NCBI GenBank assembly: GCA_028554795.2
Contig: JAPYKE020000528.1
Span: 1 to 64,000 of the forward strand
DNA length: 64,000 bases
Direction: 5' to 3'
Source: Sinohyriopsis cumingii
Taxonomy: Eukaryota; Mollusca; Bivalvia; Unionida; Unionidae
The notes under the pieces were generated by a model, which did not search any database, was not told the DNA's origin, and saw nothing but the letters and a program-made list of their open reading frames with translations. Numbering within the stretch: the first letter of the stretch is position 1; each line of letters opens with the position of its first letter. Below are positions 1-64,000 of this stretch, one piece after another. Made by a program: the position numbers and the translations under genes.

Positions 1-117
1 TACAAGGCAGCTAAAAGAATCAGTATGTGCCTTATGCATGAATAAAGTTCACTAGTACTATAACAAATTAGCATACTTTTCATCACCCCTCAACCATCTA
101 GATTTTTAGATATTTAC

Positions 118-182
118 CTCTGTAGCAGACACACAAAAATACGTAGCCCGAGTTACGCATTTGATCTCCAATGCAAATCTAA
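118..182 (-). CDS. Candidate exon W, class-A form (65 nt, eight codons shorter)
   Basis: It has the same borders as the B form (acceptor CAG at 183-185, donor GTAAATATC reading down from 117) but lacks the 24-bp segment. The deletion falls on codon borders and removes the residues ANELSTWL, leaving the frame intact. It is present in all class-A copies, for example 2237-2301. The support is no better than for the B form. Confidence 0.22.
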
Positions 183-250
183 CTGTGACAGGCAGTCACC
201 AACAAGCCAACCTATTTCCAAGCCTAACTCTAAGTAAATCTGAACCACAT

Positions 251-276
251 TATAGATTTAGCTTATGTGTGAATTT
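251..276. other. 26-bp class-A-specific segment
   Basis: It lies between CCACAT and ATAAATGC in class A and in hybrid copy 22, and is missing in class B (CCACATATAAATGC). It is AT-rich and falls in the predicted intron just upstream of W on the minus strand. Short T/A-rich homology at the borders fits a deletion by slippage or end joining. Confidence 0.95.
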
Positions 277-346
277 ATAAATGCTAGGCTTGTGATAATT
301 AGGTTCATGCCTTCTACCTTAAAAATTAGGGGGGTGTCAAAATATG

Positions 347-371
347 AAACTATCCAGTGAGACCTTAAGAA
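347..371 (+). repeat. Inverted repeat, left arm (25 bp), present in each unit
   Basis: The arm reads AAACTATCC then AGTGAGACCTTAAGAA. Its reverse complement occurs at 1852-1876 with one mismatch in 25 (TATCC versus TGTCC). It lies just right of a G-run, GGGGGGTGTCAAAATATG. Chance is a very poor explanation within a 2.1-kb unit. The arm duplicates, in inverted orientation, the part of V encoding KLSSETLR. Confidence 0.85.
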
Positions 372-1243
372 TTCAAATAGCAGTCTGATTAAGGGAAAAT
401 CTTCTTATTTTCAAAACTTTGACCAATTCTAAATAAAACGCAACCTTCAGAAGTTTGAAATTCAAAATTGTTTGTTTCCTATGATTTATTGAATTTATTG
501 ATGACCAAAAGCTATCAAGCAGAGCAACAGCTATGAGACAGCTTCATACTTCATGTATTACTTTCACCTCTGAAACATACAATTTCTTTATATTATGTCC
601 GTTTCATCATTTTTCATAGCTAATACACCCTGTCTTGTTAGTGCCTGGTGATATCAGAGATATCTGAGAGCACAAATAATACAACTCTTCATGCAATCTG
701 AAATAGTAGTGAATAAAAGATGTAAAGAAGCCAAGCTGAATTTCTTGTACAATGGCTGCAGAATGTACATGCCAAGTACTTGAAAGAATAATAACGATGC
801 ACGGCATATATAAACTGACCAGAACTCTCTCACTGATTTCATGAAGAAGGTCAAATCTATTTTAGAATAGAGAAATCCAAGGTAGACTTAAGGGAGGCAA
901 CTCATCAGGTAACATCAAATGTATGGACCAATCTTTGTAAACTGAACCACATCAGTTGGGAAACTTAAACAATGAAATTCTATACCCATATTTATCCCAT
1001 CTGTTGATAAAACAATATGCATGGATAATGTATTTTAAGAACACTAAGAAGGACACCTCTAAATCATTTTCATACTGGCCGGCACATAACGTTGTTGAAG
1101 TTGCTGCTATTTAGAAGTGTGTTTTGCTAGTGATTGTCACCTGCATAGAACTGAATCTAAAGCAAATAGAAAATCATGCAAAGTAAAAAAGGGAGGAGAA
1201 AAAACACAATGTAAAAAAGGGACATCCATTTAATATAACTCAC
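372..1243. other. Non-genic stretch between W and Y (predicted intron), variable part of the unit
   Basis: No supported gene. Two overlapping minus-strand open frames of 66 codons (607-807 and 654-854) lie here in two different frames. Copy-to-copy SNPs change residues in both frames, so neither shows protein-level constraint. The stretch is AT-rich, with EcoRV-type GATATC repeats near 650, a TATATAAA at 807-814 and a GCCGGC site near 1079. Most diagnostic SNPs of the array fall here or in 120-300. Confidence 0.7.
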
Positions 1244-1390
1244 CAAAAACTTCAATGAAACTGGTGCAGATATATTTGTTCCTGTGAAAGCTCCACAACA
1301 ATTGGCATGTCTGACTCCCAATAAATTGTTGATGTTGTCCTGCTGTTAGCAATATCACTTCAGCAGGTGTGCTCCCATACACCTTGAGGC
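1244..1390 (-). CDS. Candidate internal exon Y (147 nt, phase-symmetric), one per unit
   Basis: On the minus strand a U-rich tract ending TTTTATTTTGTTGTAG precedes base 1390, and the donor G/GTGAGTTATATT follows base 1244. Only one frame is open across the segment. It enters after two bases (GC) and leaves with one (G), so the length of 147 is 49 codons and phase is kept on both sides. The peptide contains VYGSTPAEVILLTAG and a Cys-rich second half with QTCQLLW and KYICTSF. I do not recognise the family and see no catalytic motif. Read unspliced, the frame stops five codons past the donor, which fits a true exon border. Copies lie at 3364, 5484, 7603, 9722, 11842, 13962, 16082, 18202, 20320, 22440, 24558, 26676, 28796, 30914, 33034, 35152, 37272, 39390, 41508, 43635, 45779, 47897, 50015, 52133, 54251, 56369, 58487, 60605 and 62722, each 147 nt. 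The only variation seen is Ile to Thr near the end in copies 10, 13, 17 and 20. It could be a gene fragment carried passively by the repeat. Confidence 0.45.
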
Positions 1391-1671
1391 CTACAACAAA
1401 ATAAAACCCTGAACTTCTTATATACAGGTCATTATAACTTAAATTTCTGTAAATAAGATGAAATATATGTATTGAAACATTACATCATGAGTAGATATGG
1501 ATGTAAGAGCATTAAATTAAGGTAATCATCATAAAATTAGGAAAATATACTAAGTTTATACTGAAAATGTTGATAAACTGAATAAGTATGTGAAATACTT
1601 CAATTAAACCACCTTGCTTGAAACTTATAAGGCTTTTGTTGTTCATTAGGAGAATGGATCAGGAGCAATAC
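1391..1671. other. Predicted intron between X and Y; nearly invariant
   Basis: AT-rich, with no open frame of note. On the minus strand it ends in the pyrimidine-rich tract and TAG used by Y. Across 30 copies the only change I saw is one missing A in copy 3 (about 5700). Confidence 0.5.
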
Positions 1672-1708
1672 CTGGTAGTATTAAAACTGTTGAGTTAAGT
1701 CCCTTCTT
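1672..1708 (-). CDS. Candidate micro-exon X (37 nt)
   Basis: On the minus strand, TAATCATAGTAG precedes base 1708 and CCAG/GTATTGCTCC follows base 1672. Read to fit Y's entry phase (one base left over), it encodes twelve residues ending in NSTVLILP and completes a Gly codon with Y. It starts at phase 0, the phase in which W ends. The acceptor has a poor pyrimidine tract, and the in-frame TAG directly before it fixes the leftmost border. The fit rests mainly on phase arithmetic. Confidence 0.13.
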
Positions 1709-1774
1709 CTACTATGATTAAGTGCAATCAAATCTATAGGAAGTGTATGTTTGGAATACCTAACTATGTCAGAT

Positions 1775-1934
1775 TCAAGATATGGAGGTAATAAGGATAT
1801 GATTTATGGCACAGTGAATCACATTTGACAAGACTGAAAAAATGACACCGGTTCTTAAGGTCTCACTGGACAGTTTATCTGGTGAATTTTCATCCGACGA
1901 TGACCAATTACAGAAAAGTGAGAATAATTTTACA
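1775..1934 (-). CDS. Candidate 3'-terminal exon or gene remnant V (Ser/Asp-rich start)
   Basis: On the minus strand a strong acceptor (GTTTTTATTTGTATCTTCAG) precedes base 1934. After one leftover base the frame is open for 52 codons and ends at TGA 1775-1777. The peptide has an acidic Ser-rich stretch, SSSDENSPDKLSSETL, then a hydrophobic tail with VIFSVLSNVIHCAINHIL. Its entry phase does not fit W's exit, so it cannot be placed in one simple transcript with W. In copy 20 the 7-bp duplication shifts its frame. A plus-strand frame (1842-1961) opposes it. No family recognised. Confidence 0.2.
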
Positions 1935-1961
1935 CTGAAGATACAAATAAAAACAAACTAA
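1842..1961 (+). CDS. Small plus-strand ORF opposite V (39 codons)
   Basis: It starts at ATG 1842 and ends at TAA 1959-1961. The peptide is acidic in the middle (VSLDSLSGEFSSDDDQLQKS). It lies antisense to V, and its Ser/Asp-rich look may simply mirror V's Ser/Asp/Glu codons. There is no splice support and no clear promoter. It is listed because it is too short for usual gene callers and cannot be excluded, but I consider V's strand more likely since Y and W lie there. Confidence 0.08.
   Translation: MTPVLKVSLDSLSGEFSSDDDQLQKSENNFTLKIQIKTN
1852..1876 (-). repeat. Inverted repeat, right arm (25 bp), present in each unit
   Basis: This arm is complementary to 347-371, 24 of 25 positions. The loop within a unit is 1,480 bp; the distance to the left arm of the next unit is about 590 bp, so either pairing is possible in a read-through RNA. 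I found no target-site duplication or longer terminal inverted repeat, so I do not call it a transposon end. Confidence 0.85.
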
Positions 1962-2236
1962 TGATTTTTGTAGAAAGCATACATGTGAGATTTTGACTGC
2001 AGTAATCAGGTTAATTCCTGATGCAACTGGTGGTTTTTATACTGAACCAACACTGCCACCAACCCCTAAATTTTACATTCATTTTTGACAAGAAATAGCT
2101 ATTTTGAATATTTTTCTGTGACAAGGCAGCTAAAAGAATCAGTATGTGCCTTATGCATGAATAAAGTTCACTAGTACTATAACAAATTAGCATACTTTTC
2201 ATCACCCCTCAACCATCTAGATTTTTAGATATTTAC
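1935..2236. other. AT-rich stretch between V and the next unit's W
   Basis: It holds a 64-codon minus-strand open frame (2011-2205) that spans my arbitrary unit border. That frame has no splice, start-context or family support and is broken in copy 30. Nothing else is recognisable; AATAAA-like motifs occur but are expected at this base composition. Confidence 0.6.
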
Positions 2237-4240
2237 CTCTGTAGCAGACACACAAAAATACGTAGCCCGAGTTACGCATTTGATCTCCAATGCAAATCTA
2301 ACTGTGACAGGCAGTCACCAACAAGCCAACCTATTTCCAAGCCTAACTCAAAGTAAATCTGAACCACATTATAGATTTAGCTTATGTGTGAATTTATAAA
2401 TGCTAGGCTTGTGATAATTAGGTTCATGCCTTCTACCTTAAAAATTAGGGGGGTGTCAAAATATGAAACTATCCAGTGAGACCTTAAGAATTCAAATAGC
2501 AGTCTGATTAAGGGAAAATCTTCTTATTTTCAAAACTTTGACCAATTCTAAATAAAACGCAACCTTCAGAAGTTTGAAATTCAAAATTGTTTGTTTCCTA
2601 TGATTTATTGAATTTATTGATGACCAAAAAGCTATCAAGCAGAGCAACAGCTACGAGACAGCTTCATACTTCATGTATTACTTTCACCTCTGAAACATAC
2701 AATTTCTTTATATTATGTCCGTTTCATCATTTTTCATAGCTAATACACCCTGTCTTGTTAGTGCCTGGTGATATCAGAGATATCTGAGAGCACAAATAAT
2801 ACAACTCTTCATGCAATCTGAAATAGCAGTGAATAAAAGATGTAAAGAAGCCAAGCTGAATTTCTTGTACAATGGCTGCAGAATGTACATGCCAAGTACT
2901 TGAAAGAATAATAACGATGCACGGCATATATAAACTGACCAGAACTCTCTCACTGATTTCATGAAGAAGGTCAAATCTATTTTAGAATAGAGAAATCCAA
3001 GGTAGACTTAAGGGAGGCAACTCATCAGGTAACATCAAATGTATGGACCAATCTTTGTAAACTGAACCACATCAGTTGGGAAACTTAAACAATGAAATTC
3101 TATACCCATATTTATCCCATCTGTTGATAAAACAATATGCATGGATAATGTATTTTAAGAACACTAAGAAGGACACCTCTAAATCATTTTCATACTGGCC
3201 GGCACATAATGTTGTTGAAGTTGCTGCTATTTAGAAGTGTGTTTTGCTAGTGATTGTCACCTGCATAGAACTGAATCTAAAGCAAATAGAAAATCATGCA
3301 AAGTAAAAAAGGGGAGGAGAAAAAACACAATGTAAAAAGGGACATCCATTTAATATAACTCACCAAAAACTTCAATGAAACTGGTGCAGATATATTTGTT
3401 CCTGTGAAAGCTCCACAACAATTGGCATGTCTGACTCCCAATAAATTGTTGATGTTGTCCTGCTGTTAGCAATATCACTTCAGCAGGTGTGCTCCCATAC
3501 ACCTTGAGGCCTACAACAAAATAAAACCCTGAACTTCTTATATACAGGTCATTATAACTTAAATTTCTGTAAATAAGATGAAATATATGTATTGAAACAT
3601 TACATCATGAGTAGATATGGATGTAAGAGCATTAAATTAAGGTAATCATCATAAAATTAGGAAAATATACTAAGTTTATACTGAAAATGTTGATAAACTG
3701 AATAAGTATGTGAAATACTTCAATTAAACCACCTTGCTTGAAACTTATAAGGCTTTTGTTGTTCATTAGGAGAATGGATCAGGAGCAATACCTGGTAGTA
3801 TTAAAACTGTTGAGTTAAGTCCCTTCTTCTACTATGATTAAGTGCAATCAAATCTATAGGAAGTGTATGTTTGGAATACCTAACTATGTCAGATTCAAGA
3901 TATGGAGGTAATAAGGATATGATTTATGGCACAGTGAATCACATTTGACAAGACTGAAAAAATGACACCGGTTCTTAAGGTCTCACTGGACAGTTTATCT
4001 GGTGAATTTTCATCCGACGATGACCAATTACAGAAAAGTGAGAATAATTTTACACTGAAGATACAAATAAAAACAAACTAATGATTTTTGTAGAAAGCAT
4101 ACATGTGAGATTTTGACTGCAGTAATCAGGTTAATTCCTGATGCAACTGGTGGTTTTTATACTGAACCAACACTGCCACCAACCCCTAAATTTTACATTC
4201 ATTTTTGACAAGAAATAGCTATTTTGAATATTTTTCTGTG
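2121..4240. repeat. Monomer 2, class A (even subtype), 2,120 bp
   Basis: It carries the even-subtype markers GCTACGAGAC, TAGCAGTG and CATAATGTT. Two homopolymer differences are private: GACCAAAAAGC (one extra A, about 2625) and GTAAAAAGG (one A fewer, about 3335). W lies at 2237-2301 and Y at 3364-3510. Confidence 0.95.
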
Positions 4241-6359
4241 ACAAGGCAGCTAAAAGAATCAGTATGTGCCTTATGCATGAATAAAGTTCACTAGTACTAT
4301 AACAAATTAGCATACTTTTCATCACCCCTCAACCATCTAGATTTTTAGATATTTACCTCTGTAGCAGACACACAAAAATACGTAGCCCGAGTTACGCATT
4401 TGATCTCCAATGCAAATCTAACTGTGACAGGCAGTCACCAACAAGCCAACCTATTTCCAAGCCTAACTCTAAGTAAATCTGAACCACATTATAGATTTAG
4501 CTTATGTGTGAATTTATAAATGCTAGGCTTGTGATAATTAGGTTCATGCCTTCTACCTTAAAAATTAGGGGGGTGTCAAAATATGAAACTATCCAGTGAG
4601 ACCTTAAGAATTCAAATAGCAGTCTGATTAAGGGAAAATCTTCTTATTTTCAAAACTTTGACCAATTCTAAATAAAACGCAACCTTCAGAAGTTTGAAAT
4701 TCAAAATTGTTTGTTTCCTATGATTTATTGAATTTATTGATGACCAAAAGCTATCAAGCAGAGCAACAGCTATGAGACAGCTTCATACTTCATGTATTAC
4801 TTTCACCTCTGAAACATACAATTTCTTTATATTATGTCCGTTTCATCATTTTTCATAGCTAATACACCCTGTCTTGTTAGTGCCTGGTGATATCAGAGAT
4901 ATCTGAGAGCACAAATAATACAACTCTTCATGCAATCTGAAATAGTAGTGAATAAAAGATGTAAAGAAGCCAAGCTGAATTTCTTGTACAATGGCTGCAG
5001 AATGTACATGCCAAGTACTTGAAAGAATAATAACGATGCACGGCATATATAAACTGACCAGAACTCTCTCACTGATTTCATGAAGAAGGTCAAATCTATT
5101 TTAGAATAGAGAAATCCAAGGTAGACTTAAGGGAGGCAACTCATCAGGTAACATCAAATGTATGGACCAATCTTTGTAAACTGAACCACATCAGTTGGGA
5201 AACTTAAACAATGAAATTCTATACCCATATTTATCCCATCTGTTGATAAAACAATATGCATGGATAATGTATTTTAAGAACACTAAGAAGGACACCTCTA
5301 AATCATTTTCATACTGGCCGGCACATAACGTTGTTGAAGTTGCTGCTATTTAGAAGTGTGTTTTGCTAGTGATTGTCACCTGCATAGAACTGAATCTAAA
5401 GCAAATAGAAAATCATGCAAAGTAAAAAAGGGGAGGAGAAAAAACACAATGTAAAAAAGGGACATCCATTTAATATAACTCACCAAAAACTTCAATGAAA
5501 CTGGTGCAGATATATTTGTTCCTGTGAAAGCTCCACAACAATTGGCATGTCTGACTCCCAATAAATTGTTGATGTTGTCCTGCTGTTAGCAATATCACTT
5601 CAGCAGGTGTGCTCCCATACACCTTGAGGCCTACAACAAAATAAAACCCTGAACTTCTTATATACAGGTCATTATAACTTAAATTTCTGTAAATAAGATG
5701 AATATATGTATTGAAACATTACATCATGAGTAGATATGGATGTAAGAGCATTAAATTAAGGTAATCATCATAAAATTAGGAAAATATACTAAGTTTATAC
5801 TGAAAATGTTGATAAACTGAATAAGTATGTGAAATACTTCAATTAAACCACCTTGCTTGAAACTTATAAGGCTTTTGTTGTTCATTAGGAGAATGGATCA
5901 GGAGCAATACCTGGTAGTATTAAAACTGTTGAGTTAAGTCCCTTCTTCTACTATGATTAAGTGCAATCAAATCTATAGGAAGTGTATGTTTGGAATACCT
6001 AACTATGTCAGATTCAAGATATGGAGGTAATAAGGATATGATTTATGGCACAGTGAATCACATTTGACAAGACTGAAAAAATGACACCGGTTCTTAAGGT
6101 CTCACTGGACAGTTTATCTGGTGAATTTTCATCCGACGATGACCAATTACAGAAAAGTGAGAATAATTTTACACTGAAGATACAAATAAAAACAAACTAA
6201 TGATTTTTGTAGAAAGCATACATGTGAGATTTTGACTGCAGTAATCAGGTTAATTCCTGATGCAACTGGTGGTTTTTATACTGAACCAACACTGCCACCA
6301 ACCCCTAAATTTTACATTCATTTTTGACAAGAAATAGCTATTTTGAATATTTTTCTGTG
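4241..6359. repeat. Monomer 3, class A (odd subtype), 2,119 bp
   Basis: Odd-subtype markers are present. One A is missing at about 5700 (GATGAATATATG instead of GATGAAATATATG), inside the interval between Y and X, which explains its 2,119-bp length. Y lies at 5484-5630. Confidence 0.95.
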
Positions 6360-8479
6360 ACAAGGCAGCTAAAAGAATCAGTATGTGCCTTATGCATGAA
6401 TAAAGTTCACTAGTACTATAACAAATTAGCATACTTTTCATCACCCCTCAACCATCTAGATTTTTAGATATTTACCTCTGTAGCAGACACACAAAAATAC
6501 GTAGCCCGAGTTACGCATTTGATCTCCAATGCAAATCTAACTGTGACAGGCAGTCACCAACAAGCCAACCTATTTCCAAGCCTAACTCAAAGTAAATCTG
6601 AACCACATTATAGATTTAGCTTATGTGTGAATTTATAAATGCTAGGCTTGTGATAATTAGGTTCATGCCTTCTACCTTAAAAATTAGGGGGGTGTCAAAA
6701 TATGAAACTATCCAGTGAGACCTTAAGAATTCAAATAGCAGTCTGATTAAGGGAAAATCTTCTTATTTTCAAAACTTTGACCAATTCTAAATAAAACGCA
6801 ACCTTCAGAAGTTTGAAATTCAAAATTGTTTGTTTCCTATGATTTATTGAATTTATTGATGACCAAAAGCTATCAAGCAGAGCAACAGCTACGAGACAGC
6901 TTCATACTTCATGTATTACTTTCACCTCTGAAACATACAATTTCTTTATATTATGTCCGTTTCATCATTTTTCATAGCTAATACACCCTGTCTTGTTAGT
7001 GCCTGGTGATATCAGAGATATCTGAGAGCACAAATAATACAACTCTTCATGCAATCTGAAATAGCAGTGAATAAAAGATGTAAAGAAGCCAAGCTGAATT
7101 TCTTGTACAATGGCTGCAGAATGTACATGCCAAGTACTTGAAAGAATAATAACGATGCACGGCATATATAAACTGACCAGAACTCTCTCACTGATTTCAT
7201 GAAGAAGGTCAAATCTATTTTAGAATAGAGAAATCCAAGGTAGACTTAAGGGAGGCAACTCATCAGGTAACATCAAATGTATGGACCAATCTTTGTAAAC
7301 TGAACCACATCAGTTGGGAAACTTAAACAATGAAATTCTATACCCATATTTATCCCATCTGTTGATAAAACAATATGCATGGATAATGTATTTTAAGAAC
7401 ACTAAGAAGGACACCTCTAAATCATTTTCATACTGGCCGGCACATAATGTTGTTGAAGTTGCTGCTATTTAGAAGTGTGTTTTGCTAGTGATTGTCACCT
7501 GCATAGAACTGAATCTAAAGCAAATAGAAAATCATGCAAAGTAAAAAAGGGGAGGAGAAAAAACACAATGTAAAAAAGGGACATCCATTTAATATAACTC
7601 ACCAAAAACTTCAATGAAACTGGTGCAGATATATTTGTTCCTGTGAAAGCTCCACAACAATTGGCATGTCTGACTCCCAATAAATTGTTGATGTTGTCCT
7701 GCTGTTAGCAATATCACTTCAGCAGGTGTGCTCCCATACACCTTGAGGCCTACAACAAAATAAAACCCTGAACTTCTTATATACAGGTCATTATAACTTA
7801 AATTTCTGTAAATAAGATGAAATATATGTATTGAAACATTACATCATGAGTAGATATGGATGTAAGAGCATTAAATTAAGGTAATCATCATAAAATTAGG
7901 AAAATATACTAAGTTTATACTGAAAATGTTGATAAACTGAATAAGTATGTGAAATACTTCAATTAAACCACCTTGCTTGAAACTTATAAGGCTTTTGTTG
8001 TTCATTAGGAGAATGGATCAGGAGCAATACCTGGTAGTATTAAAACTGTTGAGTTAAGTCCCTTCTTCTACTATGATTAAGTGCAATCAAATCTATAGGA
8101 AGTGTATGTTTGGAATACCTAACTATGTCAGATTCAAGATATGGAGGTAATAAGGATATGATTTATGGCACAGTGAATCACATTTGACAAGACTGAAAAA
8201 ATGACACCGGTTCTTAAGGTCTCACTGGACAGTTTATCTGGTGAATTTTCATCCGACGATGACCAATTACAGAAAAGTGAGAATAATTTTACACTGAAGA
8301 TACAAATAAAAACAAACTAATGATTTTTGTAGAAAGCATACATGTGAGATTTTGACTGCAGTAATCAGGTTAATTCCTGATGCAACTGGTGGTTTTTATA
8401 CTGAACCAACACTGCCACCAACCCCTAAATTTTACATTCATTTTTGACAAGAAATAGCTATTTTGAATATTTTTCTGTG
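6360..8479. repeat. Monomer 4, class A (even subtype), 2,120 bp
   Basis: It has the even-subtype markers, with no private change that I noticed. Together with monomer 3 it forms the second dimer of the left block. Y lies at 7603-7749. Confidence 0.95.
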
Positions 8480-19078: not shown

Positions 19079-19194
19079 ACAAGGCAGCTAAAAGAATCAG
19101 TATGTGCCTTATGCATGAATAAAGTTCACTAGTACTATAACAAATTAGCATACTTTTCATCACCCCTCAACCATCTAGATTTTTAGATATTTAC

Positions 19195-40266: not shown

Positions 40267-42391
40267 ACAAGGCAGCTAAAAGAATCAGTATGTGCCTTAT
40301 GCATGAATAAAGTTCACTAGTACTATAACAAATTAGCATACTTTTCATCACCCCTCAACCATCTAGATTTTTAGATATTTACCTCTGTAGCAGACACACA
40401 AAAATACGTAAGCCAAGTCGACAGCTCATTTGCAGCCCGAGTTACGCATTTGATCTCCAATGCAAATCTAACTGTGACAGGCAGTCACCAACAAGCCAAC
40501 CTATTTCCAAGCCTAACTCAAAGAAAATCTGAACCACATATAAATGCTAGGCTTGTGATAATTAGGTTCATGCCTTCTACCTTAAAAATTAGGGGGGTGT
40601 CAAAATATGAAACTATCCAGTGAGACCTTAAGAATTCAAATAGCAGTCTGATTAAGGGAAAATCTTCTTATTTTCAAAACTTTGACCAATTCTAAATAAA
40701 ACGCAACCTTCAGAAGTTTGAAATTCAAAATTGTTTGTTTCCTATGATTTATTGAATTTATTGATGACCAAAAGCTATCAAGCAGAGCAACAGCTATGAG
40801 ACAGCTTCATACTTCATGTATTACTTTCACCTCTGAAACATACAATTTCTTTGTATTATGTCAGTTTCATCATTTTTCATAGCTAATACACCCTGTCTTG
40901 TTAGTGCCTGGTGATATCAGAGATATCTGAGAGCACAAATAATACAACTCTTCATGCAATCTGAAATAGTAGTGAATAAAAGATGTAAAGAAGCCAAGCT
41001 GAATTTCTTGTACAATGGCTGCAGAATGTACATGCCAAGTACTTGAAAGAATAATAACGATGCACGGCATATATAAACTGACCAGAACTCTCTCACTGAT
41101 TTCATGAAGAAGGTCAAATCTATTTTAGAATAGAGAAATCCAAGGTAGACTTAAGAGAGGCAACTCATCAGGTAACATCAAATGTATGGACCAATCTTTG
41201 TAAACTGAACCACATCAGTTGGGAAACTTAAACAATGAAATTCTATACCCATATTTATCCCATCTGTTGATAAAACAATATGCATGGATGATGTATTTTA
41301 AGAACACTAAGAAGGACACCTCTAAATCATTTTCATACTGGCCGGCACATAATGTTGTTGAAGTTGCTGCTATTTAGAAGTGTGTTTTGCTAGTGATTGT
41401 CACCTGCATAGAACTGAATCTAAAGCAAATAGAAAATCATGCAAAGTAAAAAAGGGGAGGAGAAAAAACACAATGTAAAAAAGGGACATCCATTTAATAT
41501 AACTCACCAAAAACTTCAGTGAAACTGGTGCAGATATATTTGTTCCTGTGAAAGCTCCACAACAATTGGCATGTCTGACTCCCAATAAATTGTTGATGTT
41601 GTCCTGCTGTTAGCAATATCACTTCAGCAGGTGTGCTCCCATACACCTTGAGGCCTACAACAAAATAAAACCCTGAACTTCTTATATACAGGTCATTATA
41701 ACTTAAATTTCTGTAAATAAGATGAAATATATGTATTGAAACATTACATCATGAGTAGATATGGATGTAAGAGCATTAAATTAAGGTAATCATCATAAAA
41801 TTAGGAAAATATACTAAGTTTATACTGAAAATGTTGATAAACTGAATAAGTATGTGAAATACTTCAATTAAACCACCTTGCTTGAAACTTATAAGGCTTT
41901 TGTTGTTCATTAGGAGAATGGATCAGGAGCAATACCTGGTAGTATTAAAACTGTTGAGTTAAGTCCCTTCTTCTACTATGATTAAGTGCAATCAAATCTA
42001 TAGGAAGTGTATGTTTGGAATACCTAACTATGTCAGATTCAAGATATGGAGGTAATAAGGATATGATTTATGGCACAGTGAATCACATTTGACAAGACTG
42101 AAAAAATGACACCGGTTCTTAAGGTCTCACTGGACAGTTTATCTGGTGAATTTTCATCCGACGATGACCAATTACCAATTACAGAAAAGTGAGAATAATT
42201 TTACACTGAAGATACAAATAAAAACAAACTAATGATTTTTGTAGAAAGCATACATGTGAGATTTTGACTGCAGTAATCAGGTTAATTCCTGATGCAACTG
42301 GTGGTTTTTATACTGAACCAACACTGCCACCAACCCCTAAATTTTACATTCATTTTTGACAAGAAATAGCTATTTTGAATATTTTTCTGTG
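40267..42391. repeat. Monomer 20, class B' with 7-bp duplication, 2,125 bp
   Basis: B' markers, with Y at 41508-41654 carrying the Ile-to-Thr change. CCAATTA is doubled at 42168-42181, which accounts for the 7 extra bases and shifts the frame of candidate V. Confidence 0.95.
42168..42181. repeat. Private 7-bp tandem duplication in copy 20
   Basis: CCAATTA occurs twice in direct succession where all other copies have it once. It marks a recent event that has not spread to neighbouring units and accounts exactly for the 2,125-bp length of this unit. Confidence 0.97.
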
Positions 42392-44511
42392 ACAAGGCAG
42401 CTAAAAGAATCAGTATGTGCCTTATGCATGAATAAAGTTCACTAGTACTATAACAAATTAGCATACTTTTCATCACCCCTCAACCATCTAGATTTTTAGA
42501 TATTTACCTCTGTAGCAGACACACAAAAATACGTAGCCCGAGTTACGCATTTGATCTCCAATGCAAATCTAACTGTGACAGGCAGTCACCAACAAGCCAA
42601 CCTATTTCCAAGCCTAACTCAAAGTAAATCTGAACCACATTATAGATTTAGCTTATGTGTGAATTTATAAATGCTAGGCTTGTGATAATTAGGTTCATGC
42701 CTTCTACCTTAAAAATTAGGGGGGTGTCAAAATATGAAACTATCCAGTGAGACCTTAAGAATTCAAATAGCAGTCTGATTAAGGGAAAATCTTCTTATTT
42801 TCAAAACTTTGACCAATTCTAAATAAAACGCAACCGTCAGAAGTTTGAAATTCAAAATTGTTTGTTTCCTATGATTTATTGAATTTATTGATGACCAAAA
42901 GCTATCAAGCAGAGCAACAGCTATGAGACAGCTTCATACTTCATGTATTACTTTCACCTCTGAAACATACAATTTCTTTATATTATGTCAGTTTCATCAT
43001 TTTTCATAGCTAATACACCCTGTCTTGTTAGTGCCTGGTGATATCAGAGATATCTGAGAGCACAAATAATACAACTCTTCATGCAATCTGAAATAGTAGT
43101 GAATAAAAGATGTAAAGAAGCCAAGCTGAATTTCTTGTACAATGGCTGCAGAATGTACATGCCAAGTACTTGAAAGAATAATAACGATGCACGGCATATA
43201 TAAACTGACCAGAACTCTCTCACTGATTTCATGAAGAAGGTCAAATCTATTTTAGAATAGAGAAATCCAAGGTAGACTTAAGCGAGGCAACTCATCAGGT
43301 AACATCAAATGTATGGACCAATCTTTGTAAACTGAACCACATCAGTTGGGAAACTTAAACAATGAAATTCTATACCCATATTTATCCCATCTGTTGATAA
43401 AACAATATGCATGGATAATGTATTTTAAGAACACTAAGAAGGACACCTCTAAATCATTTTCATACTGGCCGGCACATAATGTTGTTGAAGTTGCTGCTAT
43501 TTAGAAGTGTGTTTTGCTAGTGATTGTCACCTGCATAGAACTGAATCTAAAGCAAATAGAAAATCATGCAAAGTAAAAAAGGGGAGGAGAAAAAACACAA
43601 TGTAAAAAAGGGACATCCATTTAATATAACTCACCAAAAACTTCAATGAAACTGGTGCAGATATATTTGTTCCTGTGAAAGCTCCACAACAATTGGCATG
43701 TCTGACTCCCAATAAATTGTTGATGTTGTCCTGCTGTTAGCAATATCACTTCAGCAGGTGTGCTCCCATACACCTTGAGGCCTACAACAAAATAAAACCC
43801 TGAACTTCTTATATACAGGTCATTATAACTTAAATTTCTGTAAATAAGATGAAATATATGTATTGAAACATTACATCATGAGTAGATATGGATGTAAGAG
43901 CATTAAATTAAGGTAATCATCATAAAATTAGGAAAATATACTAAGTTTATACTGAAAATGTTGATAAACTGAATAAGTATGTGAAATACTTCAATTAAAC
44001 CACCTTGCTTGAAACTTATAAGGCTTTTGTTGTTCATTAGGAGAATGGATCAGGAGCAATACCTGGTAGTATTAAAACTGTTGAGTTAAGTCCCTTCTTC
44101 TACTATGATTAAGTGCAATCAAATCTATAGGAAGTGTATGTTTGGAATACCTAACTATGTCAGATTCAAGATATGGAGGTAATAAGGATATGATTTATGG
44201 CACAGTGAATCACATTTGACAAGACTGAAAAAATGACACCGGTTCTTAAGGTCTCACTGGACAGTTTATCTGGTGAATTTTCATCCGACGATGACCAATT
44301 ACAGAAAAGTGAGAATAATTTTACACTGAAGATACAAATAAAAACAAACTAATGATTTTTGTAGAAAGCATACATGTGAGATTTTGACTGCAGTAATCAG
44401 GTTAATTCCTGATGCAACTGGTGGTTTTTATACTGAACCAACACTGCCACCAACCCCTAAATTTTACATTCATTTTTGACAAGAAATAGCTATTTTGAAT
44501 ATTTTTCTGTG
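42392..44511. repeat. Monomer 21, class A, middle/right block transition, 2,120 bp
   Basis: A indel state with GCTATGAGAC (as in right-block copies), TTAAGCGAGG (middle-block state) and intact GCCGGC. CAACCGTCAG at about 42836 is private. Y lies at 43635-43781. Confidence 0.95.
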
Positions 44512-46655
44512 ACAAGGCAGCTAAAAGAATCAGTATGTGCCTTATGCATGAATAAAGTTCACTAGTACTATAACAAATTAGCATACTTTTCATCACCCCT
44601 CAACCATCTAGATTTATAGATATTTACCTCTGTAGCAGACACACAAAAATACGTAAGCCAAGTCGACAGCTCATTTGCAGCCCGAGTTACGCATTTGATC
44701 TCCAATGCAAATCTAACTGTGACAGGCAGTCACCAACAAGCCAACTTATTTCCAAGCCTAACTCAAAGTAAATCTGAACCACATTATAGATTTAGCTTAT
44801 GTGTGAATTTATAAATGCTAGGCTTGTGATAATTAGGTTCATGCCTTCTACCTTAAAAATTAGGGGGGTGTCAAAATATGAAACTATCCAGTGAGACCTT
44901 AAGAATTCAAATAGCAGTCTGATTAAGGGAAAATCTTCTTATTTTCAAAACTTTGACCAATTCTAAATAAAACGCAACCTTCAGAAGTTTGAAATTCAAA
45001 ATTGTTTGTTTCCTATGATTTATTGAATTTATTGATGACCAAAAGCTATCAAGCAGAGCAACAGCTATGAGACAGCTTCATACTTCATGTATTACTTTCA
45101 CCTCTGAAACATACAATTTCTTTATATTATGTCAGTTTCATCATTTTTCATAGCTAATACACCCTGTCTTGTTAGTGCCTGGTGATATCAGAGATATCTG
45201 AGAGCACAAATAATACAACTCTTCATGCAATCTGAAATAGTAGTGAATAAAAGATGTAAAGAAGCCAAGCTGAATTTCTTGTACAATGGCTGCAGAATGT
45301 ACATGCCAAGTACTTGAAAGAATAATAACGATGCACGGCATATATAAACTGACCAGAACTCTCTCACTGATTTCATGAAGAAGGTCAAATCTATTTTAGA
45401 ATAGAGAAATCCAAGGTAGACTTAAGGGAGGCAACTCATCAGGTAACATCAAATGTATGGACCAATCTTTGTAAACTGAACCACATCAGTTGGGAAACTT
45501 AAACAATGAAATTCTATACCCATATTTATCCCATCTGTTGATAAAACAATATGCATGGATAATGTATTTTAAGAACACTAAGAAGGACACCTCTAAATCA
45601 TTTTCATACTGGCCGGCACATAATGTTGTTGAAGTTGCTACTATTTAGAAGTGTGTTTTGCTAGTGATTGTCACCTGCATAGAACTGAATCTAAAGCAAA
45701 TAGAAAATCATGCAAAGTAAAAAAGGGGAGGAGAAAAAACACAATGTAAAAAAGGGACATCCATTTAATATAACTCACCAAAAACTTCAATGAAACTGGT
45801 GCAGATATATTTGTTCCTGTGAAAGCTCCACAACAATTGGCATGTCTGACTCCCAATAAATTGTTGATGTTGTCCTGCTGTTAGCAATATCACTTCAGCA
45901 GGTGTGCTCCCATACACCTTGAGGCCTACAACAAAATAAAACCCTGAACTTCTTATATACAGGTCATTATAACTTAAATTTCTGTAAATAAGATGAAATA
46001 TATGTATTGAAACATTACATCATGAGTAGATATGGATGTAAGAGCATTAAATTAAGGTAATCATCATAAAATTAGGAAAATATACTAAGTTTATACTGAA
46101 AATGTTGATAAACTGAATAAGTATGTGAAATACTTCAATTAAACCACCTTGCTTGAAACTTATAAGGCTTTTGTTGTTCATTAGGAGAATGGATCAGGAG
46201 CAATACCTGGTAGTATTAAAACTGTTGAGTTAAGTCCCTTCTTCTACTATGATTAAGTGCAATCAAATCTATAGGAAGTGTATGTTTGGAATACCTAACT
46301 ATGTCAGATTCAAGATATGGAGGTAATAAGGATATGATTTATGGCACAGTGAATCACATTTGACAAGACTGAAAAAATGACACCGGTTCTTAAGGTCTCA
46401 CTGGACAGTTTATCTGGTGAATTTTCATCCGACGATGACCAATTACAGAAAAGTGAGAATAATTTTACACTGAAGATACAAATAAAAACAAACTAATGAT
46501 TTTTGTAGAAAGCATACATGTGAGATTTTGACTGCAGTAATCAGGTTAATTCCTGATGCAACTGGTGGTTTTTATACTGAACCAACACTGCCACCAACCC
46601 CTAAATTTTACATTCATTTTTGACAAGAAATAGCTATTTTGAATATTTTTCTGTG
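44512..46655. repeat. Monomer 22, hybrid with both indel segments, 2,144 bp
   Basis: It carries the B-specific 24-bp segment (44655-44678) and also the A-specific 26-bp segment (44785-44810), and is the only such unit in the window. Other markers are right-block type (TTAAGGGAGG, GTTGCTACT). Private changes are GATTTATAGAT at about 44611 and CCAACTTATTT at about 44742. W is the 89-nt form at 44628-44716; Y lies at 45779-45925. Confidence 0.96.
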
Positions 46656-55127: not shown

Positions 55128-57245
55128 ACAAGGCAGCTAAAAGAATCAGTATGTGCCTTATGCATGAATAAAGTTCACTAGTACTATAACAAATTAGCAT
55201 ACTTTTCATCACCCCTCAACCATCTAGATTTTTAGATATTTACCTCTGTAGCAGACACACAAAAATACGTAAGCCAAGTCGACAGCTCATTTGCAGCCCG
55301 AGTTACGCATTTGATCTCCAATGCAAATCTAACTGTGACAGGTAGTCACCAACAAGCCAACCTATTTCCAAGCCTAACTCAAAGTAAATCTGAACCACAT
55401 ATAAATGCTAGGCTTGTGATAATTAGGTTCATGCCTTCTACCTTAAAAATTAGGGGGGTGTCAAAATATGAAACTATCCAGTGAGACCTTAAGAATTCAA
55501 ATAGCAGTCTGATTAAGGGAAAATCTTCTTATTTTCAAAACTTTGACCAATTCTAAATAAAACGCAACCTTCAGAAGTTTGAAATTCAAAATTGTTTGTT
55601 TCCTATGATTTATTGAATTTATTGATGACCAAAAGCTATCAAGCAGAGCAACAGCTATGAGACAGCTTCATACTTCATGTATTACTTTCACCTCTGAAAC
55701 ATACAATTTCTTTATATTATGTCAGTTTCATCATTTTTCATAGCTAATACACCCTGTCTTGTTAGTGCCTGGTGATATCAGAGATATCTGAGAGCACAAA
55801 TAATACAACTCTTCATGCAATCTGAAATAGTAGTGAATAAAAGATGTAAAGAAGCCAAGCTGAATTTCTTGTACAATGGCTGCAGAATGTACATGCCAAG
55901 TACTTGAAAGAATAATAACGATGCACGGCATATATAAACTGACCAGAACTCTCTCACTGATTTCATGAAGAAGGTCAAATCTATTTTAGAATAGAGAAAT
56001 CCAAGGTAGACTTAAGGGAGGCAACTCATCAGGTAACATCAAATGTATGGACCAATCTTTGTAAACTGAACCACATCAGTTGGGAAACTTAAACAATGAA
56101 ATTCTATACCCATATTTATCCCATCTGTTGATAAAACAATATGCATGGATAATGTATTTTAAGAACACTAAGAAGGACACCTCTAAATCATTTTCATACT
56201 GGCCGGCACATAATGTTGTTGAAGTTGCTACTATTTAGAAGTGTGTTTTGCTAGTGATTGTCACCTGCATAGAACTGAATCTAAAGCAAATAGAAAATCA
56301 TGCAAAGTAAAAAAGGGGAGGAGAAAAAACACAATGTAAAAAAGGGACATCCATTTAATATAACTCACCAAAAACTTCAATGAAACTGGTGCAGATATAT
56401 TTGTTCCTGTGAAAGCTCCACAACAATTGGCATGTCTGACTCCCAATAAATTGTTGATGTTGTCCTGCTGTTAGCAATATCACTTCAGCAGGTGTGCTCC
56501 CATACACCTTGAGGCCTACAACAAAATAAAACCCTGAACTTCTTATATACAGGTCATTATAACTTAAATTTCTGTAAATAAGATGAAATATATGTATTGA
56601 AACATTACATCATGAGTAGATATGGATGTAAGAGCATTAAATTAAGGTAATCATCATAAAATTAGGAAAATATACTAAGTTTATACTGAAAATGTTGATA
56701 AACTGAATAAGTATGTGAAATACTTCAATTAAACCACCTTGCTTGAAACTTATAAGGCTTTTGTTGTTCATTAGGAGAATGGATCAGGAGCAATACCTGG
56801 TAGTATTAAAACTGTTGAGTTAAGTCCCTTCTTCTACTATGATTAAGTGCAATCAAATCTATAGGAAGTGTATGTTTGGAATACCTAACTATGTCAGATT
56901 CAAGATATGGAGGTAATAAGGATATGATTTATGGCACAGTGAATCACATTTGACAAGACTGAAAAAATGACACCGGTTCTTAAGGTCTCACTGGACAGTT
57001 TATCTGGTGAATTTTCATCCGACGATGACCAATTACAGAAAAGTGAGAATAATTTTACACTGAAGATACAAATAAAAACAAACTAATGATTTTTGTAGAA
57101 AGCATACATGTGAGATTTTGACTGCAGTAATCAGGTTAATTCCTGATGCAACTGGTGGTTTTTATACTGAACCAACACTGCCACCAACCCCTACATTTTA
57201 CATTCATTTTTGACAAGAAATAGCTATTTTGAATATTTTTCTGTG
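55128..57245. repeat. Monomer 27, class B, 2,118 bp
   Basis: Private changes are CAGGTAGTCACC at about 55342 and CCCTACATTT at about 57193. Y lies at 56369-56515. Confidence 0.95.
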
Positions 57246-59363
57246 ACAAGGCAGCTAAAAGAATCAGTATGTGCCTTATGCATGAATAAAGTTCACTAGT
57301 ACTATAACAAATTAGCATACTTTTCATCACCCCTCAACCATCTAGATTTTTAGATATTTACCTCTGTAGCAGACACACAAAAATACGTAAGCCAAGTCGA
57401 CAGCTCATTTGCAGCCCGAGTTACGCATTTGATCTCCAATGCAAATCTAACTGTGACAGGCAGTCACCAACAAGCCAACCTATTTCCAAGCCTAACTCAA
57501 AGTAAATCTGAACCACATATAAATGCTAGGCTTGTGATAATTAGGTTCATGCCTTCTACCTTAAAAATTAGGGGGGTGTCAAAATATGAAACTATCCAGT
57601 GAGACCTTAAGAATTCAAATAGCAGTCTGATTAAGGGAAAATCTTCTTATTTTCAAAACTTTGACCAATTCTAAATAAAACGCAACCTTCAGAAGTTTGA
57701 AATTCAAAATTGTTTGTTTCCTATGATTTATTGAATTTATTGATGACCAAAAGCTATCAAGCAGAGCAACAGCTATGAGACAGCTTCATACTTCATGTAT
57801 TACTTTCACCTCTGAAACATACAATTTCTTTATATTATGTCAGTTTCATCATTTTTCATAGCTAATACACCCTGTCTTGTTAGTGCCTGGTGATATCAGA
57901 GATATCTGAGAGCACAAATAATACAACTCTTCATGCAATCTGAAATAGTAGTGAATAAAAGATGTAAAGAAGCCAAGCTGAATTTCTTGTACAATGGCTG
58001 CAGAATGTACATGCCAAGTACTTGAAAGAATAATAACGATGCACGGCATATATAAACTGACCAGAACTCTCTCACTGATTTCATGAAGAAGGTCAAATCT
58101 ATTTTAGAATAGAGAAATCCAAGGTAGACTTAAGGGAGGCAACTCATCAGGTAACATCAAATGTATGGACCAATCTTTGTAAACTGAACCACATCAGTTG
58201 GGAAACTTAAACAATGAAATTCTATACCCATATTTATCCCATCTGTTGATAAAACAATATGCATGGATAATGTATTTTAAGAACACTAAGAAGGACACCT
58301 CTAAATCATTTTCATACTGGCCGGCACATAATGTTGTTGAAGTTGCTACTATTTAGAAGTGTGTTTTGCTAGTGATTGTCACCTGCATAGAACTGAATCT
58401 AAAGCAAATAGAAAATCATGCAAAGTAAAAAAGGGGAGGAGAAAAAACACAATGTAAAAAAGGGACATCCATTTAATATAACTCACCAAAAACTTCAATG
58501 AAACTGGTGCAGATATATTTGTTCCTGTGAAAGCTCCACAACAATTGGCATGTCTGACTCCCAATAAATTGTTGATGTTGTCCTGCTGTTAGCAATATCA
58601 CTTCAGCAGGTGTGCTCCCATACACCTTGAGGCCTACAACAAAATAAAACCCTGAACTTCTTATATACAGGTCATTATAACTTAAATTTCTGTAAATAAG
58701 ATGAAATATATGTATTGAAACATTACATCATGAGTAGATATGGATGTAAGAGCATTAAATTAAGGTAATCATCATAAAATTAGGAAAATATACTAAGTTT
58801 ATACTGAAAATGTTGATAAACTGAATAAGTATGTGAAATACTTCAATTAAACCACCTTGCTTGAAACTTATAAGGCTTTTGTTGTTCATTAGGAGAATGG
58901 ATCAGGAGCAATACCTGGTAGTATTAAAACTGTTGAGTTAAGTCCCTTCTTCTACTATGATTAAGTGCAATCAAATCTATAGGAAGTGTATGTTTGGAAT
59001 ACCTAACTATGTCAGATTCAAGATATGGAGGTAATAAGGATATGATTTATGGCACAGTGAATCACATTTGACAAGACTGAAAAAATGACACCGGTTCTTA
59101 AGGTCTCACTGGACAGTTTATCTGGTGAATTTTCATCCGACGATGACCAATTACAGAAAAGTGAGAATAATTTTACACTGAAGATACAAATAAAAACAAA
59201 CTAATGATTTTTGTAGAAAGCATACATGTGAGATTTTGACTGCAGTAATCAGGTTAATTCCTGATGCAACTGGTGGTTTTTATACTGAACCAACACTGCC
59301 ACCAACCCCTAAATTTTACATTCATTTTTGACAAGAAATAGCTATTTTGAATATTTTTCTGTG
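57246..59363. repeat. Monomer 28, class B, 2,118 bp
   Basis: Right-block markers, with no private change that I noticed, so it is a fair consensus for this block. Y lies at 58487-58633. Confidence 0.95.
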
Positions 59364-61481
59364 ACAAGGCAGCTAAAAGAATCAGTATGTGCCTTATGCA
59401 TGAATAAAGTTCACTAGTACTATAACAAATTAGCATACTTTTCATCACCCCTCAACCATCTAGATTTTTAGATATTTACCTCTGTAGCAGACACACAGAA
59501 ATGCGTAAGCCAAGTCGACAGCTCATTTGCAGCCCGAGTTACGCATTTCATCTCCAATGCAAATCTAACTGTGACAGGCAGTCACCAACAAGCCAACCTA
59601 TTTCCAAGCCTAACTCAAAGTAAATCTGAACCACATATAAATGCTAGGCTTGTGATAATTAGGTTCATGCCTTCTACCTTAAAAATTAGGGGGGTGTCAA
59701 AATATGAAACTATCCAGTGAGACCTTAAGAATTCAAATAGCAGTCTGATTAAGGGAAAATCTTCTTATTTTCAAAACTTTGACCAATTCTAAATAAAACG
59801 CAACCTTCAGAAGTTTGAAATTCAAAATTGTTTGTTTCCTATGATTTATTGAATTTATTGATGACCAAAAGCTATCAAGCAGAGCAACAGCTATGAGACA
59901 GCTTCATACTTCATGTATTACTTTCACCTCTGAAACATACAATTTCTTTATATTATGTCAGTTTCATCATTTTTCATAGCTAATACACCCTGTCTTGTTA
60001 GTGCCTGGTGATATCAGAGATATCTGAGAGCACAAATAATACAACTCTTCATGCAATCTGAAATAGTAGTGAATAAAAGATGTAAAGAAGCCAAGCTGAA
60101 TTTCTTGTACAATGGCTGCAGAATGTACATGCCAAGTACTTGAAAGAATAATAACGATGCACAGCATATATAAACTGACCAGAACTCTCTCACTGATTTC
60201 ATGAAGAGGGTCAAATCTATTTTAGAATAGAGAAATCCAAGGTAGACTTAAGGGAGGCAACTCATCAGGTAACATCAAATGTATGGACCAATCTTTGTAA
60301 ACTGAACCACATCAGTTGGGAAACTTAAACAATGAAATTCTATACCCATATTTATCCCATCTGTTGATAGAACAATATGCATGGATGATGTATTTTAAGA
60401 ACACTAAGAAGGACACCTCTAAATCATTTTCATACTGGCCGGCACATAATGTTGTTGAAGTTGCTGCTATTTAGAAGTGTGTTTTGCTAGTGATTGTCAC
60501 CTGCATAGAACTGAATCTAAAGCAAATAGAAAATCATGCAAAGTAAAAAAGGGGAGGAGAAAAAACACAATGTAAAAAAGGGACATCCATTTAATATAAC
60601 TCACCAAAAACTTCAATGAAACTGGTGCAGATATATTTGTTCCTGTGAAAGCTCCACAACAATTGGCATGTCTGACTCCCAATAAATTGTTGATGTTGTC
60701 CTGCTGTTAGCAATATCACTTCAGCAGGTGTGCTCCCATACACCTTGAGGCCTACAACAAAATAAAACCCTGAACTTCTTATATACAGGTCATTATAACT
60801 TAAATTTCTGTAAATAAGATGAAATATATGTATTGAAACATTACATCATGAGTAGATATGGATGTAAGAGCATTAAATTAAGGTAATCATCATAAAATTA
60901 GGAAAATATACTAAGTTTATACTGAAAATGTTGATAAACTGAATAAGTATGTGAAATACTTCAATTAAACCACCTTGCTTGAAACTTATAAGGCTTTTGT
61001 TGTTCATTAGGAGAATGGATCAGGAGCAATACCTGGTAGTATTAAAACTGTTGAGTTAAGTCCCTTCTTCTACTATGATTAAGTGCAATCAAATCTATAG
61101 GAAGTGTATGTTTGGAATACCTAACTATGTCAGATTCAAGATATGGAGGTAATAAGGATATGATTTATGGCACAGTGAATCACATTTGACAAGACTGAAA
61201 AAATGACACCGGTTCTTAAGGTCTCACTGGACAGTTTATCTGGTGAATTTTCATCCGACGATGACCAATTACAGAAAAGTGAGAATAATTTTACACTGAA
61301 GATACAAATAAAAACAAACTAATGATTTTTGTAGAAAGCATACATGTGAGATTTTGACTGCAGTAATCAGGTTAATTCCTGATGCAACTGGTGGTTTTTA
61401 TACTGAACCAACACTGCCACCAACCCCTAAATTTTACATTCATTTTTGACAAGAAATAGCTATTTTGAATATTTTTCTGTG
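59364..61481. repeat. Monomer 29, class B, 2,118 bp
   Basis: The left half shares rare SNPs with monomer 23 (ACAGAAATGCG, GCACAGCAT, GAAGAGGGTC). GTTGATAGAAC at about 60363 is private. GGATGATGTA at about 60381 is otherwise found only in middle-block B' copies. Y lies at 60605-60751. Confidence 0.95.
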
Positions 61482-63598
61482 ACAAGGCAGTTAAAGAATC
61501 AGTATGTGCCTTATGCATGAATAAAGTTCACTAGTACTATAACAAATTAGCATACTTTTCATCACCCCTCAACCATCTAGATTTTTAGATATTTACCTCT
61601 GTAGCAGACACACAAAAATACGTAAACCAAGTCGACAGCTCATTTGCAGCCCGAGTTACGCATTTGATCTCCAATGCAAATCTAACTGTGACAGGCAGTC
61701 ACCAACAAGCCAACCTATTTCCAAGCCTAACTCAAAGTAAATCTGAACCACATATAAATGCTAGGCTTGTGATAATTAGGTTCATGCCTTCTACCTTAAA
61801 AATTAGGGGGGTGTCAAAATATGAAACTATCCAGTGAGACCTTAAGAATTCAAATAGCAGTCTGATTAAGGGAAAATCTTCTTATTTTCAAAACTTTGAC
61901 CAATTCTAAATAAAACGCAACCTTCAGAAGTTTGAAATTCAAAATTGTTTGTTTCCTATGATTTATTGAATTTATTGATGACCAAAAGCTATCAAGCAGA
62001 GCAACAGCTATGAGACAGCTTCATACTTCATGTATTACTTTCACCTCTGAAACATACAATTTCTTTATATTATGTCAGTTTCATCATTTTTCATAGCTAA
62101 TACACCCTGTCTTGTTAGTGCCTGGTGATACCAGAGATATCTGAGAGCACAAATAATACAACTCTTCATGCAATCTGAAATAGTAGTGAATAAAAGATGT
62201 AAAGAAGCCAAGCTGAATTTCTTGTACAATGGCTGCAGAATGTACATGCCAAGTACTTGAAAGAATAATAACGATGCACGGCATATATAAACTGACCAGA
62301 ACTCTCTCACTGATTTCATGAAGAAGGTCAAATCTATTTTAGAATAGAGAAATCCAAGGTAGACTTAAGGGAGGCAACTCATCAGGTAACATCAAATGTA
62401 TGGACCAATCTTTGTAAACTGAACCACATCAGTTGGGAAACTTAAACAATGAAATTCTATACCCATATTTATCCCATCTGTTGATAAAACAATATGCATG
62501 GATAATGTATTTTAAGAACACTAAGAAGGACACCTCTAAATCATTTTCATACTGGCCGGCACATAATGTTGCTGAAGTTGCTACTATTTAGAAGTGTGTT
62601 TTGCTAGTGATTGTCACCTGCATAGAACTGAATCTAAAGCAAATAGAAAATCATGCAAAGTAAAAAAGGGGAGGAGAAAAAACACAATGTAAAAAAGGGA
62701 CATCTATTTAATATAACTCACCAAAAACTTCAATGAAACTGGTGCAGATATATTTGTTCCTGTGAAAGCTCCACAACAATTGGCATGTCTGACTCCCAAT
62801 AAATTGTTGATGTTGTCCTGCTGTTAGCAATATCACTTCAGCAGGTGTGCTCCCATACACCTTGAGGCCTACAACAAAATAAAACCCTGAACTTCTTATA
62901 TACAGGTCATTATAACTTAAATTTCTGTAAATAAGATGAAATATATGTATTGAAACATTACATCATGAGTAGATATGGATGTAAGAGCATTAAATTAAGG
63001 TAATCATCATAAAATTAGGAAAATATACTAAGTTTATACTGAAAATGTTGATAAACTGAATAAGTATGTGAAATACTTCAATTAAACCACCTTGCTTGAA
63101 ACTTATAAGGCTTTTGTTGTTCATTAGGAGAATGGATCAGGAGCAATACCTGGTAGTATTAAAACTGTTGAGTTAAGTCCCTTCTTCTACTATGATTAAG
63201 TGCAATCAAATCTATAGGAAGTGTATGTTTGGAATACCTAACTATGTCAGATTCAAGATATGGAGGTAATAAGGATATGATTTATGGCACAGTGAATCAC
63301 ATTTGACAAGACTGAAAAAATGACACCGGTTCTTAAGGTCTCACTGGACAGTCTATCTGGTGAATTTTCATCCGACGATGACCAATTACAGAAAAGTGAG
63401 AATAATTTTACACTGAAGATACAAATAAAAACAAACTAATGATTTTTGTAGAAAGCATACATGTGAGATTTTGACTGCAGTAATCAGGTTAATTCCTGAT
63501 GCAACTGGTGGTTTTTATACTGAACCAACACTGCCACCAACCCCTAAATTTTACATTCATTTTTGACAAGAAATAGCTATTTTGAATATTTTTCTGTG
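61482..63598. repeat. Monomer 30, class B, 2,117 bp
   Basis: GGCAGTTAAAGAATC at about 61490 has one substitution and one missing A, giving the 2,117-bp length. GTGATACCAG at about 62126 turns a minus-strand TGA into TGG. The right half matches monomer 23 (TGTTGCTGAAG, GACATCTATT, CAGTCTATC). Y lies at 62722-62868. Confidence 0.95.
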
Positions 63599-64000
63599 AC
63601 AAGGCAGCTAAAAGAATCAGTATGTGCCTTATGCATGAATAAAGTTCACTAGTACTATAACAAATTAGCATACTTTTCATCACCCCTCAACCATCTAGAT
63701 TTTTAGATATTTACCTCTGTAGCAGACACACAAAAATACGTAAACCAAGTCGACAGCTCATTTGCAGCCCGAGTTACGCATTTGATCTCCAATGCAAATC
63801 TAACTGTGACAGGCAGTCACCAACAAGCCAACCTATTTCCAAGCCTAACTCAAAGTAAATCTGAACCACATATAAATGCTAGGCTTGTGATAATTAGGTT
63901 CATGCCTTCTACCTTAAAAATTAGGGGGGTGTCAAAATATGAAACTATCCAGTGAGACCTTAAGAATTCAAATAGCAGTCTGATTAAGGGAAAATCTTCT
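63599..64000. repeat. Monomer 31, class B, truncated by window end
   Basis: The first 402 bp of a class-B unit, including CGTAAACCAAG and the 24-bp segment, with W at 63715-63803. Nothing suggests that the array stops here. Confidence 0.95.

Follow-up and report, generated by a model that had tools for sequence, protein, structure and literature searches.

The window, which is the whole 64,000-nucleotide stretch analysed here (C528:1-64000, from a Sinohyriopsis cumingii assembly of 2.905 Gb in 1138 contigs), is filled by a tandem array lying on a single strand. Unit segmentation gives 30 full units and a partial one (63599-64000), all head to tail, uninterrupted by inverted units or foreign sequence, and the lag autocorrelation peaks at 2118. 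The GC content of the unit is 34%, and the mean pairwise identity is ~99.7%, calculated on a segmentation that left one double unit wrongly divided. CpG o/e is 0.19 for the window, which taken alone might suggest a vertebrate; this reading was rejected in view of the values of 0.21-1.36 for the flanks of three dispersed copies described below. Copy number, orientation and the identity of about 99 percent given in the initial annotation are therefore confirmed; its description of an array free of insertions and inversions holds for inverted units and foreign sequence, but not for indels, as 24-bp and 26-bp deletions and a 7-bp duplication are present.

The array alternates two segments, LTDR and INT (Table 1), with 30 LTDR starts and 31 LTDR ends in the window. 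INT is exactly 1,495 bp long in 84 of the 97 copies measured in the contig and 1 bp off in the other 13. Substitutions are found at 38 sites of the window, along with 8 indel events. Two LTDR deletions at different places, each with 1 bp of microhomology as aligned, to which no role is ascribed, define type A (24 bp missing) and type B (26 bp missing) units. Both deletions never occur together, either in the window (0/30) or in the contig (0/98), and only unit 22 of the window has neither (type 0). Units 1-9 are all A, units 10-21 are A and B mixed, and units 23-30 are all B. Weak inverted similarity extends beyond the 25-nt inverted repeat of the unit, between unit positions 360-615 and 1650-1909 (e.g. 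44871-45126 and 46161-46420); the score of its inner part is reached in 3 of 500 shuffles, and the RNA fold z-score of one arm is 0.41.

Table 1. Coordinates of the array features in the window
Feature	Position	Strand	Remarks
Interior of KolobokP-type multimer, (LTDR-INT)n	1..64000	+	30 full units of 2117-2144 bp and a partial one; array continues to 209,736 bp
Full-length LTDR, 649 bp	44250..44898	+	these 649 bp recur as terminal repeat of the dispersed elements
Left inverted end of LTDR, GGTCTCACTGGACAGTTT	44250..44267	+	18 bp
Right inverted end of the same LTDR, AAACTATCCAGTGAGACC	44881..44898	-	complementary to left end at 17/18
INT, 1,495 bp	44899..46393	+	no recognisable coding domain
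LTDR/INT junction, GAGACC/TTAAGAA	44893..44905	.	exact in 98/99 across contig; single base change in the remaining one
INT/LTDR junction, TTCTTAA/GGTCTC	46387..46399	.	mirrors LTDR/INT junction; exact in 98/98 across contig
24-bp LTDR segment absent from type A units	44655..44678	+	14/30 window units are type A
26-bp LTDR segment absent from type B units	44784..44809	+	15/30 window units are type B
Unit 22, 2144 bp, sole window unit without either deletion	44512..46655	+	shares its type (0) with the C1, C8 and C4 elements
Unit 20, 7-bp duplication near unit position 1926	40267..42391	+	

The exon content considered possible in the initial annotation finds no support. Splice-like signals and open frames occur on both strands of the unit. 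None of its translations matches a PDB entry convincingly (best E 0.19), and the six frames of unit 22 contain no Pfam domain over the cut-off. One candidate exon, likewise without a Pfam domain over the cut-off, runs across the internal INT/LTDR junction of the transposon; another, in the LTDR, varies among units and contains a stop in one of them. On the minus strand of INT, an open stretch of 49 codons bounded by splice-like ends is identical in 26 of 30 units, and the other four share one change; no relative of it was found, and it has no support beyond its frame and splice-like ends. No Rfam family reaches its gathering score in 1-6400, and no tRNA gene was found. An exact 17-nt match to SNORD81 at 45356-45394 (E 2.8) is probably due to chance. 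Searches for the CENP-B box gave 0 hits, and the viral and prokaryote collections gave no match.

The nature of the unit becomes apparent from its copies elsewhere in the genome. A 121-bp query gave 1361 candidates, and among the best 40, which were scored, dispersed copies lie on C16, C8, C7, C5, C4 and C1. The C1, C8 and C4 elements each hold a whole unit and, in addition, one segment of it a second time; their flanks are unrelated to one another. They start sharply at unit position 1883 and stop at 387, both points lying within the 25-nt inverted repeat. These ends define the element as LTDR-INT-LTDR, 649, 1495 and 649 bp in length (LTDRs of 648-649 bp in the three elements), with outer ends GGTCTCACTGG...CCAGTGAGACC. 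LTR ends, for comparison, carry no long TIR. A search of the unit against repeat libraries and related genomes had been proposed with the initial annotation; searching its own genome yields dispersed insertions on several chromosomes.

Target-site duplications (TSDs) of 3 bp are found at six of the seven loci where both outer edges were read: TGA at the C1 element, TAA at the C8 element, TGT at the C4 element, TAA at C5:118.9M and TTA at a C7 multimer with seven INT matches 2144 bp apart (the latter two read at their edges only), and TTG at a solo LTDR, C5:74.36M, which has a ~93-bp internal deletion. The seventh locus, C6:86.685M, has the edges TAA/TTA with no clean duplication. Three older copies of the element, ~95% identical, are embedded there (C6:86684301-86696800, L056-L057) in another tandem repeat, of 3551 bp. 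Within the three elements compared, the LTDR pair differs at 7, 3 and 3 of ~649 sites, in one case also by a gap, and no left/right difference is consistent across the three, as if the paired LTDRs of each had been identical at insertion. Since the element occurs at unrelated sites with 3-bp duplications as monomer, as solo LTDR and as multimer, the inverted ends of the LTDR define the transposed unit. The TTAA at the internal junctions had brought piggyBac into consideration, against which the 3-bp outer duplications speak. As a separate observation, the best 116 of 1094 piggyBac transposase candidates scored genome-wide include a group of uninterrupted 561-aa open frames.

This architecture is that of the KolobokP DNA transposons as described by Kojima and Bao 2022 (PMC9587614). 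In that description LTDRs measure ~450 or ~660 bp and have their own TIRs of 11-18 bp with RR...YY termini; here the LTDR has 649 bp and an 18-bp TIR with GG...CC ends, paired at 17/18. TSDs there are 3-5 bp long and also flank solo LTDRs and (LTDR-INT)n-LTDR multimers; here they are 3 bp long at 6/7 loci, the C6 locus not being clean, the LTDR-INT-LTDR layout is that of the C1, C8 and C4 elements, and the other forms are represented by the solo LTDR on C5, the C7 multimer and the arrays on C16 and C528. The length is similar as well, nonautonomous KolobokP elements of oyster being given as 1,738-3,261 bp, and bivalves are reported to be rich in KolobokP (PMC9587614). Contigs of chromosome size and plentiful piggyBac and Harbinger transposases, taken with KolobokP, would tentatively suit a bivalve host. 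Autonomous members have a DDD/E transposase and a His-Me nuclease in INT (PMC9587614). No domain of either kind exceeds the cut-off in the six frames of unit 22, as expected for a nonautonomous member, and the element is filed as such because it has no recognisable coding capacity. Hence, we suggest that the array, which reaches the scale of a satellite, is very probably a multimer, (LTDR-INT)n, of a KolobokP-type DNA transposon in nonautonomous form, and the window is the interior of this longer multimer; membership would follow from architecture, INT apparently encoding neither the transposase nor the nuclease. The initial annotation recognised no known family and would have counted it against its own reading if the unit matched a satellite or transposon family already known. 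Such a match is provided by the published KolobokP architecture together with the TSD-flanked dispersed copies.

Duplications of 3 bp also fit PIF/Harbinger, and the element might be a nonautonomous composite of two PIF/Harbinger MITEs around a captured 1.5-kb segment, amplified in tandem later. The duplications at the six loci all start with T, the ends are GG...CC, and Harbinger-type transposases are present in the genome (150 matches scored, the best of 838 candidates). However, none of the eight loci fetched from these 150 has a close TIR pair; at one of them, L054, each side has a weak TIR match with up to 4/15 mismatches, of which the left-hand one is found again in the related locus L051. 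Harbinger target duplications are expected to be TNA, from which TGT and TTG differ. Paired LTDRs without left/right difference, the solo LTDR and the TSD-flanked multimer fit KolobokP better, and we regard the composite as improbable. Independently of this, ten 422-aa Harbinger-type transposase frames, ~19-21 kb apart, form a possible tandem array at C7:129.825-130.000 Mb.

The KolobokP-type array is not limited to the window. C528 is array throughout its 209,736 bp, with 98 contiguous full units, partial ends and no flanking non-array sequence at either end. A second array of ~207 kb (C16:85,846,592-86,053,722) is array at all points sampled inside it. On the right it stops naturally, at an LTDR end, and on the left it abuts 100 N, interpreted as an assembly gap. 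In the whole genome there are 248 exact occurrences of a 29-mer of INT, 98 of these in C528. Beyond the right edge of the C16 array, a tRNA-like, SINE-looking sequence (L047, about 3300-3420) was noted by eye. The missing flanks of C528 and the 100 N beside the C16 array could indicate that the array length is in part an assembly artefact, but the two arrays differ in unit composition, the commonest spacing being 2120 bp in C16 (49 of the 72 spacings listed) and 2118 bp in C528 (52/97), and C528 contains private variants and block structure, which makes this highly improbable. Comparison of unit-length order with the first 72 C16 spacings listed gives a best offset of 12/29, where ~4 are expected by chance before the best is chosen, and thus no clear overlap. 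C528 could be the piece missing from the C16 gap, or the other haplotype.

The units retain traces of the history of the array. In the window, similarity drops with distance between units, and 18 near-identical pairs (at most one event apart) occur at lags 2, 3, 4, 6, 7 and 10. None of the 18 are neighbours, which is not significant alone (P 0.28), and their clustering at short lags is significant (P 0.0004). Among the 98 units of C528, six of the 8 lags tested, 1-5 and 7, have more near-identical pairs than expected (permutation P<=0.0074); lags 6 and 8 do not. The four-gamete test is failed by 45 of 276 site pairs in the window. We suggest that this block pattern may reflect unequal exchange together with conversion of blocks. 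The deletions A and B are found in the arrays, and the three dispersed elements tested (C1, C8, C4) are all type 0, so that the array units look derived and both types probably arose in the array lineage. At one LTDR site, T is found in the 11 C528 LTDRs sampled and in one internal C16 LTDR, and C in the dispersed copies read there and in the last C16 LTDR. Substitutions are scarce past unit position 1280, a boundary picked after viewing the data: 2 of 38 in the window (15.4 expected) and 14 of 76 among the 98 units (30.6 expected). The scarcity is confined to the 3' part of INT, 1281-1882 (e.g. 45792-46393), with 4 of 76 where 21.3 are expected; the LTDR part after position 1882 is normal, with 10 substitutions against 9.3 expected.

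The macrosatellites D4Z4 and DXZ4 have kilobase units in long homogeneous, GC-rich arrays and bear genes or CTCF sites. The likeness to them drawn in the initial annotation stands for size, unit length and homogeneity, but not for the gene-bearing side of the comparison, as the present unit is LTDR plus INT of a dispersed transposon, has 34% GC and no recognisable genes. That the array is an ordinary satellite or a gene-bearing macrosatellite with no link to transposition, as its size, homogeneity and 209.7 kb of uninterrupted repeat might suggest, deserves hardly any credence in view of the discrete TSD-flanked copies on several chromosomes with ends at inverted repeats, and of a unit with no domain over the cut-off and no CTCF-like site within 2 mismatches of the motif.

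We suggest that the KolobokP-type array most likely arose by transposition followed by repeated unequal exchange between LTDRs, the exchange being deduced from the patterns described above with no recombinant observed.

Step 1: The mobile form would be the 2793-bp monomer, LTDR(649)-INT(1495)-LTDR(649), presumably moved by a transposase made elsewhere.

Step 2: After insertion the paired LTDRs would behave like the LTRs of a retrotransposon, and misaligned exchange between them would add LTDR-INT units with the outer duplications unchanged. Unequal crossover is discussed for KolobokP in PMC9587614. Speculatively, the exchange might be stimulated by the I-PpoI-like nuclease of KolobokP, cutting in or beside the LTDRs.

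Step 3: Further unequal exchange and conversion would lead to about a hundred homogenised units per assembled piece.

An I-PpoI-like site was also looked for at the junctions; the match to the site is 10/15, four of the six best places listed are not junctions, and the candidate was rejected.

A second family in the same genome has a related organisation. A search with PF05551 gave 1890 candidates, of which the best 150 were scored; most of the scored matches lie on at least 13 contigs (C399, C418, C622, C661, C691, C787, C858, C1009, C1070, C1077, C1078, C1102 and C1137), spaced mostly by 4168 or ~3702 bp over tens of kb. This 4.2-kb KolobokP-like family has a 138-aa ORF with PF05551 (E 8e-14), whose best solved-structure matches are I-PpoI, weak (E 0.05), and, on the opposite strand, a 495-aa open frame with the Mutator-like transposase domain PF20700 (E 2e-33). 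A 464-bp segment with GG...CC inverted ends is present at three of its loci. Because its length fits the difference between the two spacings, this LTDR-like segment, read in one copy, is taken as the putative LTDR of the family; it belongs to the other KolobokP length class than the 649-bp LTDR. INT-INT junctions of the kind described in PMC9587614 could explain the ~3702-bp spacing. The four loci of this family compared (L058-L061) have no DNA match to the 2.1-kb unit, and among the loci read no autonomous partner sharing the 649-bp LTDR or its TIR turned up. The INT tips are mirrored in both families, TTCTTAA/GG and CC/TTAAGAA in the 2.1-kb family vs CTTTA/GG and CC/TAAAG at one locus of the 4.2-kb family; the tips of KolobokP-1_MeMe are TATA (PMC9587614). 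Tentatively, KolobokP elements may be makers of satellites in this genome, with at least two families grown by LTDR exchange, perhaps driven by a nuclease in trans that cuts at the mirrored INT tips, their arrays comprising the 210-kb contig and tens of kb on at least 13 others.

In this genome a single family occurs as solo LTDR, as monomers, as short multimer and as arrays of ~200 kb, and a DNA transposon is caught here in the course of becoming satellite DNA. The markers of unit history, two mutually exclusive deletions and private variants, make the array a testbed for models of the origin and growth of tandem arrays, including nuclease-driven unequal exchange. Unlike KolobokP as described in PMC9587614, in whose main text the word "satellite" is absent, the present family reaches 98 full units on one contig, with a second array of similar length, and has block structure. 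In the alternation of a terminal repeat with an internal domain it resembles the tandem arrays of the Cassandra TRIM as presented in PMC7215508, for which unequal exchange is likewise proposed to change copy number; Cassandra, however, is an LTR retroelement (PMC7215508), and the element described here is a DNA transposon.
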